From NCBI GenBank assembly GCA_031264475.1, contig JAISEA010000095.1, positions 1 through 16,159 of the forward strand: a stretch of 16,159 nt of DNA, read 5' to 3'. Both the position numbers and the translations under genes were made by a program. Origin of the DNA: Treponema sp. GTDB taxonomy: Bacteria > Spirochaetota > Spirochaetia > Treponematales > Breznakiellaceae. A model generated the notes under the pieces. The model made no database searches. It saw only the letters and a list, made by a program, of their open reading frames with translations, and was not told where the DNA came from. Shown here one piece after another: positions 7,766 to 14,016 of this stretch. How positions within the stretch are numbered: the stretch's first letter is position 1; every line of letters starts with the position of its first letter.

Positions 7766-7933
7766 TTAAACTGTGGCAGGGCGAGTTGAAACTGTGGCGG
7801 GCAGACTTAAAACGCCAGCGGGGGGACTTCAAACTCTACAGGATGGAGTTCAAACGCTAGAGATCATAGTATGATCTTTAAAGATCGAAGTCTAAACGCT
7901 AGGGATTTGAATTCAAACTCTGGAGGGATCAAG
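7766..7933. repeat. Degenerate tandem array, eight units of exactly 21 bp
   Basis: Units start at 7766, 7787, 7808, 7829, 7850, 7871, 7892 and 7913. Seven of eight have AAAC or a one-base variant at positions 3-6, and most end in AGT or ACT. A rough consensus is TNAAACKCTAGMGGGNNNAGT. Unit 6 is the most diverged. Spacing is exact with no indels, though units share only about half their bases. The period equals that of the array at 98-580. It lies between the PII-like gene and the nhaC promoter. Confidence 0.75.
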
Positions 7934-8229: not shown

Positions 8230-9807
8230 ATGGAAAGTGTAGATGTTGGAATTTGGTCGGTTTTGCCGCCCGTCATCGCCATCGCGTTGGCGCTTATCAC
8301 TAAGGAAGTGATATTCTCATTGATTTTTGGCGTTATCTCTGGAGCGGTCATCTATAGCGCGGCTTTGGGGCTTGGCGTTATTGGCGTTTTTACGACGACC
8401 ATCGACCTTATGATACATAAAATTGCGGACAGCGACAATGCGGCGATGATAATCTTTCTCGCCCTATTAGGCGCTTTGGTTGCGCTCATTACGCGGGCGG
8501 GCGGCTCGCGGGCTTATGGCGTATGGGCATCGCGGAAAATCAAAACCCAACGGAGCGCAGGATTGGTAACCGCGCTTCTCGGCGTGTTGATCTTTATTGA
8601 CGATTATTTTAACTGCCTCACCGTCGGCACGGTCATGCGCCCGATAACGGATAGGCAGAAAATGTCCCGCGAAAAGTTGGCGTACTTTATAGACGCCACC
8701 GCCGCGCCTATCTGCGTCATAGCGCCGATTTCCTCTTGGTCAGCGTCCGTCATATCTTATTATCCTACGGAAACCGGCGTTACCGGAATGGAGGCGTTCA
8801 TCAGTTCCATTCCCATGAATCTTTACGCGATACTCACCATCTTCATGGTCGTCTACCTCGCGTTGCGGAAGAACAGCGACTTTGGTCCCATGGTTGTAGC
8901 TCAACGCCGCGCGCTCGAATCGGAAGTCGCCGACGACCAGCTCGCGTCCGCAGACGACGAACTTAGCAAGCTCAATGTATCCGAAAAAGGCAAGGTATTA
9001 GACCTTCTCACGCCCGTCATCTTTCTCGTCATCTTCTCGGTGCTTGCAATGCTCTGGTACGGCGGCTATTGGCACATAGGCGAGGACGGCGCCCGCAAGA
9101 CGCTGTTTCAAGCTTTTGGAGACACTTCCGCTGGCTTCGCCTTAGCGCTCGGCGGGTTCGGCGCTCTTTTCGTCGCGTTCTTCCTCTTCGTGCCACGGAA
9201 GCTCTTCTCTTTCTCCGAATTCTTCGTCTGCATAATCCAAGGCGCAAAATCCATGTTCGTAGCGATTGTGATTTTGACCCTTGCGTGGACCATAAGCGGC
9301 GTATGTCGAGACCTTCTTGAAACCGGAAAATACGTGGCAGGCGTTGTGCAGGCTTCGTCGTTGCCCGTCGCCTTGATACCAGCGATCATGTTCGCAACCG
9401 CGGCCGCGCTCTCCTTCGCCACCGGCACGGCATGGGGAACCTTCGGCATCCTCATACCCATCACTATCAGTATCTGCGACATCGTGGCGCCGTATCTTTC
9501 CATAACCGCGCTCTCCTCGGTGCTCGCAGGCTCGGTCTTCGGCGATCATTGCTCCCCGATCTCTGACACCACGATACTTTCGTCAACAGGCGCGCATTGC
9601 AACCACATCGCCCATGTGTCAACCCAGATACCTTACGCGGTTACGGTGGCGTGCGTCTGCTTCGTCGGCTACATCATCGCGGGTTTCACCGCGTCGTTGG
9701 GCTTCGGGGTAAGCGTGCTGATAACGCTTCTCTCGTCTCTGCTCATATTGAGCGTGGTTCTCTTCATTTTACCGAGAATCTTTCAGACACAGCCGAAGCC
9801 TGTTTAA
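8230..9807 (+). CDS. nhaC: NhaC-family Na+/H+ antiporter
   Basis: 525 residues, inner membrane, at least ten hydrophobic segments (for example about 11-50, 73-90, 110-125, 195-212, 259-277, 303-321, 340-358, 378-395, 470-515). The family hallmark GDHCSPISDTT is at 438-448; other conserved stretches are IDDYFNCLTVGTVMRP (123-138) and APICVIAPISSW (159-170). The family exchanges Na+ for H+, or malate-H+ for lactate-Na+ in MleN members; the substrate cannot be settled here. A charged cytoplasmic loop lies at about 224-256. The start at 8230 has AAGGAG five bases upstream; an in-frame ATG at 8212 precedes that site and is unlikely. The last five residues and stop lie within an 18-base sequence that recurs, with one mismatch, in the element after lptG. 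Confidence 0.9.
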   Translation: MESVDVGIWSVLPPVIAIALALITKEVIFSLIFGVISGAVIYSAALGLGVIGVFTTTIDLMIHKIADSDNAAMIIFLALLGALVALITRAGGSRAYGVWASRKIKTQRSAGLVTALLGVLIFIDDYFNCLTVGTVMRPITDRQKMSREKLAYFIDATAAPICVIAPISSWSASVISYYPTETGVTGMEAFISSIPMNLYAILTIFMVVYLALRKNSDFGPMVVAQRRALESEVADDQLASADDELSKLNVSEKGKVLDLLTPVIFLVIFSVLAMLWYGGYWHIGEDGARKTLFQAFGDTSAGFALALGGFGALFVAFFLFVPRKLFSFSEFFVCIIQGAKSMFVAIVILTLAWTISGVCRDLLETGKYVAGVVQASSLPVALIPAIMFATAAALSFATGTAWGTFGILIPITISICDIVAPYLSITALSSVLAGSVFGDHCSPISDTTILSSTGAHCNHIAHVSTQIPYAVTVACVCFVGYIIAGFTASLGFGVSVLITLLSSLLILSVVLFILPRIFQTQPKPV

Positions 9808-9932
9808 CGACTTTGCACAGGCACAGCACGCGAGGCGTGTTTAATAGCTTCTTAACGGCTATTGTCCGAAAGGCGGACCCGCTGACCCCGACGTGACGGA
9901 ACCACGCTTGCACGCAAGCGTAGCCTGTTTAA
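9790..9932 (+). repeat. 3'-end element copy 1, with a short partial copy at the nhaC stop
   Basis: The partial copy CAGCCGAAGCCTGTTTAA (9790-9807) ends at the nhaC stop codon. The full copy runs from hairpin CACGC-GAG-GCGTG (9827-9839) through GTTTAATAGCTTCTTAACGG, TTGTCCGAAAGGCGGACCCG and CTGACCCCGACGTGACGG to hairpin ACGCTTGC-AC-GCAAGCGT (9904-9921). The core frame from 9838 is open and reads VFNSFLTAIVRKADPLTPT then stop. GCCTGTTTAA recurs at 9923-9932. It shares the core and both hairpins with copies at 12406-12504 and 12840-12932. Confidence 0.85.
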
Positions 9933-9986
9933 TATTAAAGGGAAGGCGGATCGTCAAGTGACACCACCTCCGATTTTTATGAACTT

Positions 9987-10012
9987 GTCAGACGACTTTC
10001 TGGGTGTCTGAC
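9987..10012. promoter_or_regulatory. GTCAGAC/GTCTGAC inverted repeat upstream of lptF
   Basis: GTCAGAC (9987-9993) and GTCTGAC (10006-10012) are a perfect 7-bp inverted pair with 12 bases between, ending 18 bases before the lptF -35 box. The same heptamer is the core of the nhaC-upstream palindromes. It may be an operator or the terminator-like stem of upstream transcripts. Confidence 0.45.
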
Positions 10013-10030
10013 CCCCGTGTCCCTTAGGAC

Positions 10031-10059
10031 TTGAATACCCCACCATCTTTTATTATACT
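10031..10059 (+). promoter_or_regulatory. lptF promoter, predicted leaderless
   Basis: TTGAAT (10031-10036), 17-base spacer, TATACT (10054-10059). Counting seven bases from the end of the -10 gives 10066, the A of an in-frame ATG. No Shine-Dalgarno is present upstream of either this ATG or the one at 10060. Confidence 0.6.
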
Positions 10060-10065
10060 ATGATA

Positions 10066-11334
10066 ATGATTATACGCCGTTCCTTGTCGGGAACTATTTT
10101 GAGATACATCATTGCGGAAACTCTTTTCTCTTTCTTGGTTGCTTTTCTCTTTTTCTTTGTCATTTTTTTTATCAATCAGCTTTTACTTTTGGCGCAAACC
10201 ATACTTACTAAGAAGGTACCGTTTTATCAAGTGGGGCTTTTGGTGCTTTACGCTATACCGTCCCTTATCTCCTTGTCCGCGCCTTTCGCCGCGCTTGTGG
10301 GAGTCTTGATGACTGCGGGGCGTTTGTCTTCGGATAACGAGGTGCTGGTTATGCTCTCGTCAGGACTTTCTTACTATAATATATTCGTCCCGACTATCGG
10401 GGTCGGAGTCGTCATAGCGCTCCTCTCGTTTTTGGCAAACGATGTGCTTTTACCAGCCGGGACCTTGCAGTTCAATAAACTCTACCGCCGTATTCTCGTC
10501 TCAACGCCAGCATTGGAACTTGGCGCTAATTCGGTTAAACGGTACCGCGATACGGTGATTGTTACCGGCGACGTCGCTGGTAATTCTATCAATAACATTT
10601 TCATCATGGATAGGACAGGCGAAGGCGAGCGCAGGCTCATCATGGCGAAAGAAGCGCGTCTGCGGGATGCGGGCAAGGAAGGCTTGAGTCTTGATCTGAC
10701 TAACGCCTTTGTCCAGTCGTCGAAAGAGATCGCCCGCCTTGATTACGACTATGCGTCGAGCGGATTTCTGCGTTATTGGGTGCCGCAGGAAGACATGATA
10801 CAGGCGGCCGCGTCTATAGGTCCGCGGGAGATGAGTTCTGTGGACGTTGCCAAGGATATTAAAGGGCAAGAAATGGAGTTACAGGAACGGCTTGATGAAC
10901 AGTATAATATGCTCTTAAAACAAGCCTTTTCTCTTGAAACATCTTTGAGGGAAGGTCCTCATGATGCTTCTTGGAATCGACGTGGTTCCGTCCTTGCCGA
11001 AGTGAAGAGAAACATGGAATCAGCAAGAGTCGCCAAGAAAGATCGTAATCTTTCTATATACCGTCTTGAGTATTACAAGAAATTTTCCTTGCCGGCAGGC
11101 GCGCTTGCCTTTGTATTCCTCGCGACGCCTCTGGGCTTGCTCGCCAAGCATAGTGGGCAAACCGTGGGCTTCTTGTTAGGAGTTATCATATCGGTCGTCT
11201 ACTGGGTACTTCTCTTTGGGGGACAGACGCTTGGTTTACGCGCGGGTTTCTCGCCATTCTGGACCATGTGGCTTCCTGATATACTTACCTTCAGTATAGG
11301 AATGATTCTATGCGGCTTTAGGATTAGAAAATAA
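10066..11334 (+). CDS. lptF: Lipid/LPS export permease subunit LptF (YjgP/YjgQ family)
   Basis: 422 residues from 10066. The family layout is clear: three N-terminal spans (about 15-45, 57-80, 104-125), a large periplasmic beta-jellyroll-type domain (about 130-320) and three C-terminal spans (about 340-420). Near the end of the periplasmic region is a charged helical stretch (about 260-325), longer than in many homologues. With LptG it forms the membrane part of the LptB2FG ABC exporter that extracts lipopolysaccharide, or an equivalent outer-membrane lipid, from the inner membrane. The ATPase LptB is not in the window. The promoter geometry favours ATG 10066 as a leaderless start; ATG 10060 would fall partly upstream of the predicted +1. 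lptG follows after eight bases. Confidence 0.88.
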   Translation: MIIRRSLSGTILRYIIAETLFSFLVAFLFFFVIFFINQLLLLAQTILTKKVPFYQVGLLVLYAIPSLISLSAPFAALVGVLMTAGRLSSDNEVLVMLSSGLSYYNIFVPTIGVGVVIALLSFLANDVLLPAGTLQFNKLYRRILVSTPALELGANSVKRYRDTVIVTGDVAGNSINNIFIMDRTGEGERRLIMAKEARLRDAGKEGLSLDLTNAFVQSSKEIARLDYDYASSGFLRYWVPQEDMIQAAASIGPREMSSVDVAKDIKGQEMELQERLDEQYNMLLKQAFSLETSLREGPHDASWNRRGSVLAEVKRNMESARVAKKDRNLSIYRLEYYKKFSLPAGALAFVFLATPLGLLAKHSGQTVGFLLGVIISVVYWVLLFGGQTLGLRAGFSPFWTMWLPDILTFSIGMILCGFRIRK

Positions 11335-11342
11335 CGGAAGTT

Positions 11343-12407
11343 ATGATACTAGATCGTTACCTTGTGAGACAGTTTTTACCGATTTTCATCATAGCCTCCT
11401 TCATGTTCGTGATGATAATCGTTCTTCTCGACCTTTTCACTAATCTCTGGCGCTATTTGAACAATCAGGTATCAATCAAGGAAATTCTCGCCGTTTCTTA
11501 CTATTATATACCCAAGAGCTTCTCCTACGCGCTACCCGTATCCCTTCTTTTCGCGTCCGCCTACACGCTGGGCGATCTCTATGGTAGGAATGAATTGACC
11601 GCCATTTTTTCGTCAGGCATCCCCTTCTTACGGTTCTCTCTTCCATTAGTGATCATTGGGCTTGGCGCTTCATTTTTCGCCTTCAACTTTGACGACAAGG
11701 TTGTTATTCCTACATTGAAGACGAAAAACGACATGGCACGTAGGCTATTGCATCAATCCACTACGGAAAACAATTCGGATATTGTCATTAAGGCGAAGGG
11801 CGGAGACCTCATCTATCTCGTTGATTATTATGATTACAAGCAATTCGTTTTAAACGGCTTGACCATTGTGGAGCAGAATGAGGATGGTACATTCGCGTCT
11901 CTGGCACGTGCTCCGAAAGCCAAATGGAACGGCGAGTACTGGGAGCTTACCGATGCGGTTGTCTACAAATGGGACAGGGAATTTCTACGGGCGTCCGCAT
12001 TGGAGGACAGTACCGCATACGACGAAGACCCTGAAACATTCCGCCGAAACGCGGTAAAACCCGAAGAACTCCCGTCAAGAGAGATAGGTTTCTTGGTTAA
12101 TGACCTCAAGAACGCGGGGCTTCCTTTCATTTCGGCGCAGGCTGATTACTACCACCGCTATTCTTTTTCCGCTGTTTCTTTCATTGTGATGATACTCTCA
12201 ATTTCAATGGGTGGACGATTCCGCAAGAACATCCTCCTGATGACCTTGCTATCGAGTTTGATGTCCGCGGTGGTCTTTTACGTCATGGATATGGTTACGA
12301 TGATGATGGCGCGGCTTGACTACATCCCAACCTTTGTGGGCGCGTGGCTTCCAGTGCTTACATTCTTGATTATAGGCACCCTACTGTTACAGAGCGCAAA
12401 AACCTAA
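11343..12407 (+). CDS. lptG: Lipid/LPS export permease subunit LptG (YjgP/YjgQ family)
   Basis: 354 residues, three N-terminal spans (about 11-37, 58-78, 96-115), a periplasmic domain (about 120-265) and three C-terminal spans (about 272-292, 295-318, 330-350). The N-terminal MILDRYLVRQFLPIF pattern and FGRNELTAIFSSG-like coupling region (GRNELTAIFSSG at 81-92) are typical; the latter contacts the LptB ATPase in known transporters. It pairs with LptF. GGAAG four bases upstream of ATG serves as ribosome binding site, and co-transcription with lptF is near certain. The stop TAA overlaps the first base pairs of the 3'-end element (copy 2). LptF/G order is assigned by position and length and could be reversed. 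Confidence 0.87.
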   Translation: MILDRYLVRQFLPIFIIASFMFVMIIVLLDLFTNLWRYLNNQVSIKEILAVSYYYIPKSFSYALPVSLLFASAYTLGDLYGRNELTAIFSSGIPFLRFSLPLVIIGLGASFFAFNFDDKVVIPTLKTKNDMARRLLHQSTTENNSDIVIKAKGGDLIYLVDYYDYKQFVLNGLTIVEQNEDGTFASLARAPKAKWNGEYWELTDAVVYKWDREFLRASALEDSTAYDEDPETFRRNAVKPEELPSREIGFLVNDLKNAGLPFISAQADYYHRYSFSAVSFIVMILSISMGGRFRKNILLMTLLSSLMSAVVFYVMDMVTMMMARLDYIPTFVGAWLPVLTFLIIGTLLLQSAKT

Positions 12408-12504
12408 CAGCCGAAGGCTGTTTAAATACTTCCTAACGGGTGTTGTTTGAAAGGTAGTACCGCTGACCCCGACATGACGGTTCCGCTTGCACGCAAGCGG
12501 AACC
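12406..12504 (+). repeat. 3'-end element copy 2, starting inside the lptG stop codon
   Basis: Hairpin AACAGCC-GAA-GGCTGTT (12406-12422), then core TTAAATACTTCCTAACGG, GTGTTGTTTGAAAGG and ACCGCTGACCCCGACATGAC, then a 12-bp perfect hairpin with arms at 12479-12490 and 12493-12504 (GGTTCCGCTTGC and its complement). The core reads LFKYFLTGVV, stop, KVVPLTPT, stop, so this copy is disrupted as a peptide. Same orientation as lptG. The hairpin has no T run, but its stability suggests a transcript 3' end. Confidence 0.85.
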
Positions 12505-12553
12505 TACTCGTTGTTAGGGCGCCGCTGTTGTCAACCTTTTTCAGGACTTGACA

Positions 12554-12655
12554 GTCAAGCACGCGGACGGTGTCAGAGGCGCGGACGGTGTCAGGCACGG
12601 GCGGTGTCAGAGGCGCGGCGGAGTCAGACACGGACGGTGTCAAGCACGGGGTTGT
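12554..12655. repeat. Degenerate tandem array of 16-18 bp units
   Basis: GTCA recurs at 12554, 12572, 12590, 12606, 12623 and 12639. Two forms roughly alternate: GTCARGCACGG(G/A)CGGT and GTCAGAGGCGCGG. Unlike the two 21-bp arrays, spacing varies (18, 18, 16, 17, 16). It contains GAGTCAGACAC (12621-12631), the reverse complement of an 11-mer found twice in the array at 98-580. Confidence 0.7.
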
Positions 12656-12707
12656 ACGGGTTTTTTGGGGGAGTGGCGGAAGACCGCGCTTGCGGGGAAC
12701 CGGAGAC

Positions 12708-12770
12708 AGGGGGGCGCACCACAAGGGCGTCTGTTTGCCCCCCTCCGTTTAGGGAAAGACGCGCCCCCCT
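12708..12770. terminator. Convergent terminator region with two competing hairpins
   Basis: AGGGGGGCGC (12708-12717) pairs perfectly with GCGCCCCCCT (12761-12770), a 10-bp stem followed by TCTTATT, as expected for a terminator of rightward transcripts from lptG. The same left arm can instead pair with GCCCCCCT (12737-12744), 8 bp. The two are mutually exclusive. Confidence 0.5.
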
Positions 12771-12790
12771 TCTTATTATGCCTGTACGAC

Positions 12791-12832
12791 TTCGCTTCGC
12801 TTGTCGGGGTCAGCGGAGACTCCTTCTAAATA
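12791..12832 (-). repeat. 3'-end element copy 4, degenerate and partial
   Basis: On the minus strand, TTATTTAGAAGGAGT is followed by CCGCTGACCCCGACA (12816-12802), identical over 15 bases to the core of copy 2, then by AAGCGAAGCG. The middle of the core and the first hairpin are missing. It follows copy 3 in the same orientation. Confidence 0.6.
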
Positions 12833-12839
12833 ACGCGTA

Positions 12840-12932
12840 GGCTCCGCTGTAAGCGTAGCCGTCATGTCAGTGGAAGCGGGTCATCCCTTCGGACAACGCC
12901 CGTTGTGAAGTATTCTAACAGGCTGTGCCTGA
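12840..12932 (-). repeat. 3'-end element copy 3, forming the 3' end of thiI
   Basis: On the minus strand: hairpin CAGGC-ACA-GCCTG (12931-12919), core TGTTAGAATACTTCACAACG, GGCGTTGTCCGAAGGGATGA and CCCGCTTCCACTGACATGAC, then a 9-bp stem with one mismatch (GGCTACGCT, 3-base loop, AGCGGAGCC; 12860-12852 and 12848-12840). The thiI reading frame runs through the core and stops at its conserved TGA (12864-12862). Confidence 0.85.
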
Positions 12933-14016
12933 AGAGTTCTAAAGCTTCTTTAATATTGCCTCGCAAGACCGGGTGTTTCGGAGAGAAAAGCGTACAACAG
13001 TCTTCGTAAGGCAGAATAGACGTTTTATACGTGCCAATCTCCTCCGCAATGCGCGTGATGGCTTCCTTATCCATTCCAATAAGCGGACGGAAAACAGGCA
13101 AAGTAACAACACTCTGAGCGCAAGCTATGTTTTCCACCGTTTGACTCGCCACCTGCGAAAGACTCTCCCCTGTTATAAGACACTTCGCCCCACATTCAAC
13201 CGCAATCTCTTCAGCCGCCTTCATCATCGCCATCCGCAAAAGAACCGTTGCCCACGGATGCGGGGCGCGATCCTTGATACGCATCTCAACCTCCGTAAAC
13301 CTAACCACGTGCAAACGGACGCCCATCGCGTAACGACCAAGTATCTCCGCTAATTCAGCGACCTTTTTCTGCGCCTCCTCAGACGTGAAAGGATACGCAT
13401 GAAAATGCACCGCATCAATACTCATACCCCGCCCAGCCATGAGAAACCCCGCCACCGGCGAATCAATGCCCCCTGACAAAAGCAATAAACCACGCCCCGC
13501 AACACCCACAGGCAGTCCACGCAAACCCTTGACGCTGGCACTGTAAATATAGGCTTGCTCCCGAATCTCCACCGTAATAACCGCCTGCGGCGTCTTGACA
13601 TTGACCTTTAAGGAAGGAGCGTTTTCCAACACAACACCGCCCGCCTCCGCCATGATACCGTAACTGTCCAAAGGAAAACTCTTATCGGTTCTGCGGGCTT
13701 CAATCTTGAAAGTCTTTATACCCTTGCGTTCAAGGACACGGGCTTCCTCTACGCAACCAGCAAGCACAGCATCAACCGTCTTTTCATAAACCCGCGTCAA
13801 CGCCCAGCCACTTATACCAAAGAGCCGAGAAAAGGCGCTCTCCGCTTGTTCCGCATATTCTTCCGGAACATCCACAAAATAACGCCCGTTTGTAACGCTT
13901 ATCTTTGACGGGACGCCTTTCAAAAGCGCCTTGAGATTACGCTTCAGAATCTTTTCAAATCCGCCGCGGTTCTCGCCCTTGAGGGTAAGCTCGCCTAACT
14001 TTAGAAGATATACCAT
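12862..14016 (-). CDS. thiI: tRNA 4-thiouridine synthase / thiamine biosynthesis sulfurtransferase ThiI
   Basis: 384 residues. It adenylates U8 of tRNA and transfers sulfur to make 4-thiouridine; many homologues also serve thiazole synthesis. Order: N-terminal ferredoxin-like domain with LKLGELTLKGENR (5-17), THUMP domain (about 60-165), PP-loop SGGIDSP (181-187), then TGESLSQVASQT (282-293) and YEDCCTLFSPKHP (337-349). The C-terminal rhodanese domain of E. coli ThiI is absent, as in the short Bacillus-type form, so sulfur must come from a separate carrier or desulfurase. The last 20 residues (365-384) are encoded by a repeat element and replace the usual helical C-terminus. It begins six bases after the aspS stop with AGGAAG upstream, so it is co-transcribed with aspS. 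Confidence 0.93.
   Translation of the reverse strand: MVYLLKLGELTLKGENRGGFEKILKRNLKALLKGVPSKISVTNGRYFVDVPEEYAEQAESAFSRLFGISGWALTRVYEKTVDAVLAGCVEEARVLERKGIKTFKIEARRTDKSFPLDSYGIMAEAGGVVLENAPSLKVNVKTPQAVITVEIREQAYIYSASVKGLRGLPVGVAGRGLLLLSGGIDSPVAGFLMAGRGMSIDAVHFHAYPFTSEEAQKKVAELAEILGRYAMGVRLHVVRFTEVEMRIKDRAPHPWATVLLRMAMMKAAEEIAVECGAKCLITGESLSQVASQTVENIACAQSVVTLPVFRPLIGMDKEAITRIAEEIGTYKTSILPYEDCCTLFSPKHPVLRGNIKEALELFRHSLLEYFTTGVVRRDDPLPLT

Follow-up and report, generated by a model that had tools for sequence, protein, structure and literature searches.

The window analysed here, a stretch of 16,159 nucleotides (nt) from Treponema sp. (contig JAISEA010000095.1), carries the genes nhaC, lptG and thiI, and a structured repeat element is found at the 3' end of each of them. 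A preliminary description, made from the sequence alone, had pointed out three copies of this element, and profile matches place them where they had been reported, in agreement with a motif scan (copies 1 and 2) and a repeat finder. The element is about 108-115 bp long and consists, from 5' to 3', of a first hairpin (HP1), a core, a 3' hairpin (HP4) and a tail. Its copies, hairpins and fragments in the window are the following.

9789-9821, plus strand: HP1 stub (hairpin and start of the core), inside which nhaC ends (profile positions 2-34, E 0.0095)
9825-9937, plus strand: element copy 1, after nhaC (profile match from 9826, E 2.4e-24; also found by the repeat finder)
9827-9839, plus strand: HP1 of copy 1, CACGC-GAG-GCGTG (sequence)
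9904-9921, plus strand: HP4 of copy 1 (sequence and alignment)
12406-12518, plus strand: element copy 2, after the lptG stop codon (profile match from 12407, E 2e-33)
12408-12420, plus strand: HP1 of copy 2, CAGCC-GAA-GGCTG (sequence and alignment)
12479-12504, plus strand: HP4 of copy 2, 11 bp (sequence)
12802-12831, minus strand: element copy 4, a weak internal fragment (profile positions 40-69, E 0.014)
12827-12931, minus strand: element copy 3, coding for the last residues of ThiI (profile match, E 2.1e-22, and comparison of ThiI tails)
12840-12860, minus strand: HP4 of copy 3, GGCT.A.CGCT / AGCG.G.AGCC with an A.G mismatch (sequence and alignment)
12919-12931, minus strand: HP1 of copy 3, CAGGC-ACA-GCCTG (sequence and alignment)

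The nhaC stop codon TAA (9805-9807) is part of the GTTTAA of the HP1 stub, which the preliminary description had not listed, HP1 of copy 2 lies directly 3' of the lptG stop codon TAA (12405-12407), and thiI runs through HP1 of copy 3 and stops with a TGA (12864-12862) within that copy. The repeat finder paired copies 1 and 2 at 77% and matched copies 2 and 3 over 84 nt as inverted repeats with 73% complementarity. Moreover, a 21-base end motif (up to 3 mismatches) matched at 9879 and 12460 and in 0 of 200 shuffles, which excludes chance for this motif. The fourth, deleted copy of the preliminary description is detected as an internal fragment, although the match is weak (E 0.014). Further weak profile matches on the minus strand lie at 9993-9903 (E 0.0011), across the end of copy 1, at 12507-12472 (E 5.5e-5), where the profile picks up the palindromic hairpin of copy 2 in reverse, and at 12781-12751 (E 1.1). 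The Rfam 15 covariance models gave no match at the gathering threshold in the whole window and none at E up to 1 within 9700-13000. Positions 9780-12960 had no match among plasmid records, and a 19-base motif had none among viral contigs.

An exact scan of the genome collection with the 19-base motif returned 15 loci, five of them in the Treponema metagenome-assembled genome Gx481_bin55 (G001). One other spirochaete locus has no element around the motif, and nine loci in unrelated taxa were taken as chance. G001 is a close relative of the window, with 99% identity in LptG and long collinear stretches of 94-95% DNA identity. We used 1,326,897 bases of this fragmented assembly (contigs 1-100, up to 20 kb each) and a profile built from 112 of its copies, which had themselves been found using copy 2 of the window. 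The profile search gave 311 matches at E 1e-5, corresponding to 309 non-overlapping whole or partial copies in 181 clusters, and hence the module is dispersed, as had been proposed. Both ends are retained in 165 copies, HP1 only in 99, the tail only in 33 and neither in 12. In all 85 multi-copy clusters the members lie on one strand, the commonest order being a copy without its 3' part and then a full one (24 clusters).

A DNA search of 12 genomes of the genus found at least 72 matches in G001, 22 in G003, 17 in G007, 10 in G008, 4 in G002 and 0 in the other seven; the searches of G001 scored 40 of 229 and 40 of 282 candidates, so that its counts are lower bounds. In a sample of 145 genomes of the family, searched with a covariance model and stricter filters (26 candidates scored per listed genome), five had matches (G001, G002, G005, G007 and G008), all of one genus. 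G005 is nearly free of the element, with 0 matches by the DNA search and 1 by the covariance model. The habitat is, at a guess, a termite gut. The element may well be a new high-copy, non-autonomous family of short interspersed structured repeats in one Treponema genus, and among the open-licence literature matches listed no title describes such a repeat in Treponema.

HP1 has a stem of 5-6 bp and a short loop, and the stem occurs in few discrete versions: among 233 hairpins found in G001 it is CACCC in 179, CACGC in 22, CAGGC in 17, CAGCC in 9 and another sequence in 6, while 30 copies have no perfect HP1 hairpin. The commonest loop is present both ways round (TTC 126, GAA 34). The core of about 55-60 nt has constant letters between short blocks, each of which exists in few versions. 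In G001 its adjacent letters co-vary as blocks of 2-3 letters (columns 20-21, 30-31, 41-42 and 52-53), with little coupling between distant blocks. HP4 has about 11 bp with an A.G mismatch, which is present in 36 of the 46 copies of an alignment (A1) taken from the window, G001, G003, G007 and G008, and in 136 of the 159 copies of a larger one; a non-standard pair occupies this position in 38 of the 46. In copy 2 of the window a C-G pair replaces the mismatch, and the opposite strand reads GTAG immediately 5' of the hairpin. The tetranucleotide adjoining HP4 on the opposite strand follows the pattern NNAG in 157 of the 159 aligned copies (GTAG 59, GGAG 48, ATAG 16, GCAG 11, GAAG 10, ACAG 9, others 6). 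The tail resembles CTCGTTGTTAG. HP1 and HP4 do not resemble each other, and a single element therefore has no obvious inverted termini of the kind found in the MITE of a DDE transposase. There is no fixed tetranucleotide before HP1, and a search for a target-site motif 5' of HP1 yielded only a purine at -1.

It had been suggested that the stems vary yet keep pairing, and we were able to demonstrate covariation in both HP1 and HP4 across the 46 copies of alignment A1. Changes on both sides of a pair were found in 51 cells against a shuffled mean of 15.5, and the HP1 and HP4 partners are paired in 92.2% of cases compared with at most 49.4% for slid partners. For four of the five covariation measures no shuffle out of 500 came up to the observed value, and for the fifth (further pair types) 102 of 500 did; this outcome is not a probability, since the aligned copies are related sequences. 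A middle hairpin in the core was considered and rejected: the top 60 column pairs showed no long-range covariation and a stem scan found no strong covarying stem. The core was also considered as a coding tail and rejected, as, judged by eye, the thiI frame seems to vary mostly at codon positions 1 and 2 and many copies have an in-frame TGA.

The rule that governs the placement of the element is its polarity: the HP1 end faces the gene. In G001 we used genes from hexamer-score calls, which agree with the main open reading frames on the window, and excluded 60 of the 309 matches at contig edges and 7 inside genes from the tandem and convergent tallies. Among 128 element-bearing intergenic regions, 112 hold elements of one direction and 16 of two directions. 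All 16 of the latter are tail-to-tail, with HP1 as the head, and a head-to-head arrangement occurs in none of the 128. In the one-direction regions HP1 is the side nearer to a gene in 105 of 112 and lies within 20 nt of it in 68, where 2000 random placements in the same regions averaged 12.7 and never exceeded 22; the tail side lies within 20 nt of a gene in 4 of 112. The same tally for relatives, from which matches starting past profile position 20 and repeats at the same locus were dropped, has HP1 on the nearer side in 8 of 8 scorable copies in G008, 6 of 7 in G007 and 2 of 2 in G002; a flanking gene is lacking on the HP1 side in three rows and on the tail side in five.

HP1 points towards a gene 3' end, in sense, in 67 of the 112 regions (within 20 nt in 57 and within 60 nt in another 3) and towards a gene 5' end, in antisense, in 45 (within 20 nt in 11, within 60 nt in another 16 and beyond that in 18). 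Several of the 5'-end copies lie just upstream of sequence that by eye is Shine-Dalgarno-like or promoter-like. The placement at 3' ends, which the preliminary description had emphasized, thus applies to the larger class but not to the antisense class at 5' ends, and the statement that the element always follows the orientation of the gene holds for the three copies of the window but fails for the family in G001. Among 86 G001 clusters with HP1 inside or within 60 nt of a sense gene 3' end, the stop codon is directly 5' of HP1 in 21, the gene reads into the element in 44 (in 24 of these its stop is the TAA of GTTTAA, at model position 20), and 2-52 nt separate gene and HP1 in the remaining 21.

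Comparison with relatives shows what happened to the gene ends. LptG ends with AKT* in the window, G001, G003, G005 and G007, and HP1 follows directly in the window and G001 only. Compared with its relatives, a 915-residue gene of G001 (C16) has kept its stop codon, with HP1 directly after it, and an acyl-CoA ligase of G007 ends like eight orthologues and has HP1 immediately after the TAA. The ThiI of the window lacks the 21-residue tail of G003 and G007 and has 22 element-encoded residues instead, and a protein of 384 residues in G001 (C7) ends RSRHPSGV*, where G005 has 22 more residues after RSR. NhaC ends TQPKPV* in the window, THPKPV* in G001 and TQAKPV* in G007, compared with TNKA* in G003, which has no element there; 3 residues are replaced. 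These element-type ends indicate that the window, G001 and G007 share the element at one and the same site of NhaC. The C-terminus of AraD has likewise been replaced in G007, where it ends YYGQASPV*, compared with YYGQKKG* in G006 and G008.

The DNA next to HP1 differs from that of relatives as well. At five of five loci tested (seven had a match in G005) homology to G005 ceases at the stop codon or at HP1, and the next 0.8-4 kb past HP1 have no match to the same G005 locus. Other sequence has taken the place of the ancestral DNA beside HP1 at four syntenic loci, one of these replacements lying upstream of a promoter-like TTGCAA-TATACT. Gene order relative to G005 is kept for 59 of 77 neighbours without an element but for only 6 of 18 with one (Fisher p 0.0012). 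The genes lptG and a 74-residue gene (putative infA) adjoin in G005, their stop codons being 26 bp apart, and are found on separate contigs in G001, each with an element at its 3' end. The elements at nhaC and lptG occupy the same sites in the window and G001, whereas their interiors and distal sequence diverge, by eye, far more than the genes, so that turnover seems to be fast.

Overall, the more constant HP1 end faces the genes, the HP1-side flanks are missing at the compared loci and breaks of gene order are commoner at the element. We tentatively favour the explanation that HP1 ends are joined to target DNA while the other end stays free, and that DNA on the HP1 side is lost until selection stops the process. 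Copies would arise by a one-ended event, in which HP1 becomes attached to target DNA, probably in the form of a single-stranded hairpin, and the other end is variable. HP1-side flanking DNA may be lost in the same or in repeated events, so that the junction would ratchet towards the gene, and purifying selection would halt it at a stop codon, at a Shine-Dalgarno or promoter region, or in a dispensable C-terminus. Inside dispensable C-termini HP1 would supply an in-frame stop (GTTTAA), and recombination among hundreds of copies could break gene order at the element sites. The bolder view of an active 'hairpin-first' family, whose fixed hairpin end integrates, erodes flanks up to the genes, rewrites C-termini and sets gene-order breaks throughout the genus, appears to us somewhat unlikely.

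Several points weigh against joining by the HP1 end with loss of flanks. No insertion event was seen and no enzyme was tied to the element. The directional loss is deduced from final positions, and insertion targeted to gene boundaries would look alike. The purine at -1 is able to form a pair with the T that follows HP1 and may therefore belong to the element, and in G002 and G003 HP1 is frequently preceded by a GTGTCNGACAC-like repeat. HP1 is the nearer side in no more than 2 of the 4 copies that could be scored in G003 and in 0 of 1 in G005, and G005, the comparator for empty sites, itself has one copy. The gene-order scoring used 250 kb of G005 and counted a neighbour without a 60%-identical match as a break, and its p value is approximate, since a boundary may be scored from both sides. 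Finally, the bias towards stop codons could partly reflect selection alone.

A HUH (RAYT) transposase is a candidate enzyme for such joining, given its co-occurrence with the element in genomes and the resemblance of HP4 to a REP hairpin. One may go further and regard the element as a RAYT-driven, REP/BIME-like family, a composite around a REP-like HP4 on which the IS200-like tyrosine (HUH) transposases, abundant in these genomes, would act, but we consider this unlikely. On its opposite strand HP4 shows a GTAG-like tag and a mismatched stem, as in the E. coli REP design in the available part of its description. The four genomes rich in RAYT matches (G001, G003, G007 and G008, with counts of 22, 27, 31 and 41 in ascending order, many for this gene family) are the four with at least 10 element matches in the DNA search, and the eight genomes with 1-9 RAYT matches have 0-4; however, LptG identity places three of the four element-rich genomes close together, so that the co-occurrence may be shared history. 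One RAYT-type query was used per genome, and many of the 22-41 matches are fragments. The GTGTCNGACAC-like repeat lies immediately 5' of HP1 at 8 of 10 loci in G002 and G003, assessed loosely by eye and with loci that are not all independent. However, palindromes of the GTGTCNGACAC type escort the RAYT genes more regularly than the element does: by a strict pattern they are found upstream in 11 of 14 (L051, L052 and L054, truncated at a contig end, are left out) and downstream in 11 of 17, while the element lies within about 500 nt of a RAYT gene at 7 of 17 loci and on both sides at one (L053). For the same reason RAYT ends were rejected as the source of the whole element. Moreover, exact GTAG is present in 59 of 159 copies only, and RAYT spread alone leaves the polarity of HP1 towards genes unexplained. 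For one RAYT, the available text on REP sequences and their transposase holds that the last two letters of the tag count most (PMC3733652, PMC8266576).

The idea of a functional transcript-end module, in which HP1 at the boundaries of genes would serve mRNA stability, termination or processing and be maintained by selection, finds some basis in the pairing and covarying stems, in the tight placement of HP1 after stop codons and in the several 5' copies just upstream of Shine-Dalgarno-like or promoter-like sequence. Nevertheless, we judge it improbable, as several genes have had their C-termini replaced by element sequence, the presence of the element is patchy (0-4 matches by DNA search in 8 of 12 congeners) and the antisense copies at 5' ends argue against such a function. 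The element consensus lacks the U-tract that follows the GC hairpin of an intrinsic terminator: HP1 is followed by three T at most, and HP4 by no run of T. Terminator-like signals are not significantly enriched, with 13 of 69 element-flush ends against 47 of 380 element-free ends with a gap of at least 80 nt (Fisher p 0.18); at element-free ends with a gap below 40 nt they number 26 of 281. A specificity for transcript 3' ends, as originally proposed, is not supported in view of the antisense 5' placement, the missing U-tract and the lack of significant terminator enrichment. Precise insertion at gene boundaries without erosion would instead involve an unknown transposase with a target such as DNA that is structured or single-stranded at stop codons and promoters, the tail-to-tail pairs being the original unit and the element its inverted ends. 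It accords with the 16 tail-to-tail against 0 head-to-head regions, with the compact gene-element-gene arrangements in G007 and with the split of the G005 neighbours lptG and putative infA onto separate contigs, each with an element at its 3' end. On the other hand, no target motif precedes HP1, in 44 of the 86 clusters close to a sense 3' end the coding sequence runs on into the element, and most regions (112 of 128) have elements of one direction only, and we give this explanation little probability.

Other repeats lie close to the element. A degenerate array of GTGTCNGACAC-type palindromes occupies 12570-12645 of the window, and such palindromes are found beside RAYT (Y1_Tnp) loci (L046-L055, L234-L240) in several species. 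A second dispersed repeat, R2, was found by blastn and by a profile.

12661-12781, plus strand: R2, on the tail side of copy 3 and in the opposite orientation to it

R2 is about 110-170 bp long, with possible long-range GGGGGGCGC/GCGCCCCCC pairing, and has 100 blastn matches at E 1e-12 and 127 profile matches in the 1.33 Mb of G001. Of 88 R2 copies near an element, 83 are on its tail side, and 72 of those are oppositely oriented. R2 was rejected as a follower of terminator T-runs, as runs of at least 4 T precede its G-run in 13 of 81 cases only. In several of 16 G001 regions examined, for example L085 and L099, the stretch between the tail of the element and R2 contains heptad-like repeats (TAACTGC, TAATCAC). 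Elsewhere in the window, positions 9-659 hold a tandem 21-bp unit in more than 20 copies, with a VVGESRP-like reading on the minus strand, which is also present at the matching place of G001. A second, degenerate repeat with a 21-bp period lies before nhaC (7768-7926); it is about 75% identical to G001 and more diverged than the genes.

How most short palindromic repeats spread remains unclear, though such repeats are common. The element offers a concrete case in which repeats replace native C-termini and mark synteny breaks. Its strict polarity, its one steadier end, the close genomes with and without it and its rapid change make the insertion chemistry testable. In such genomes, sequence just past stop codons or before start codons should not be taken as native regulatory DNA unchecked.

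Compared with the attC sites of integrons, the elements occur in both orientations and beside housekeeping genes such as lptG and thiI. The MIRU of mycobacteria is a short repeat at stop codons and lies between operon genes with overlapping start and stop codons, whereas the element is also found in antisense at 5' ends and at synteny breaks. As far as the available parts of the compared REP, BOX and ERIC literature go, a polarity like that of HP1 towards genes is not described. By those same parts, REP and BIME sequences are likewise palindromic repeats of high copy number that mostly lie outside genes and downstream of them, and the genomes with the element also have RAYT genes. The conserved stem mismatch of the E. 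coli REP type is found in HP4 (A.G in 36 of 46), and the exact GTAG beside HP4 in 59 of 159 copies is a borderline likeness to the REP tag. In contrast, the element has two unlike covarying hairpins in 108-115 bp, where the REP accounts at hand give one palindrome of 20-50 bp, and it does not regularly flank RAYT genes (within about 500 nt at 7 of 17 loci). Its arrays are head-to-tail and its pairs tail-to-tail, with HP1 as the head, while REP dimers are described in the available text as mostly head-to-head, the head being the tagged end, and rarely head-to-tail; CGTC repeats are reported there in Spirochaetes among others (PMC3733652, PMC8266576).

The BOX element of Streptococcus pneumoniae is similarly a composite, modular, structured repeat with tandem internal modules and is considered parasitic by its authors; compared by description and not by sequence, it differs in that the available part of that paper mentions no comparable gene polarity (PMC3049150). 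ERIC/RU-1 of enterobacteria, in what is available of its description, is a structured repeat of 127 bp that can replace a native stop codon and lengthen the C-terminus of a protein; the ERIC fusions given there are single examples, whereas the Treponema element is read into by the gene in 44 of 86 close sense 3' cases, in a nearly fixed orientation (PMC2759123).

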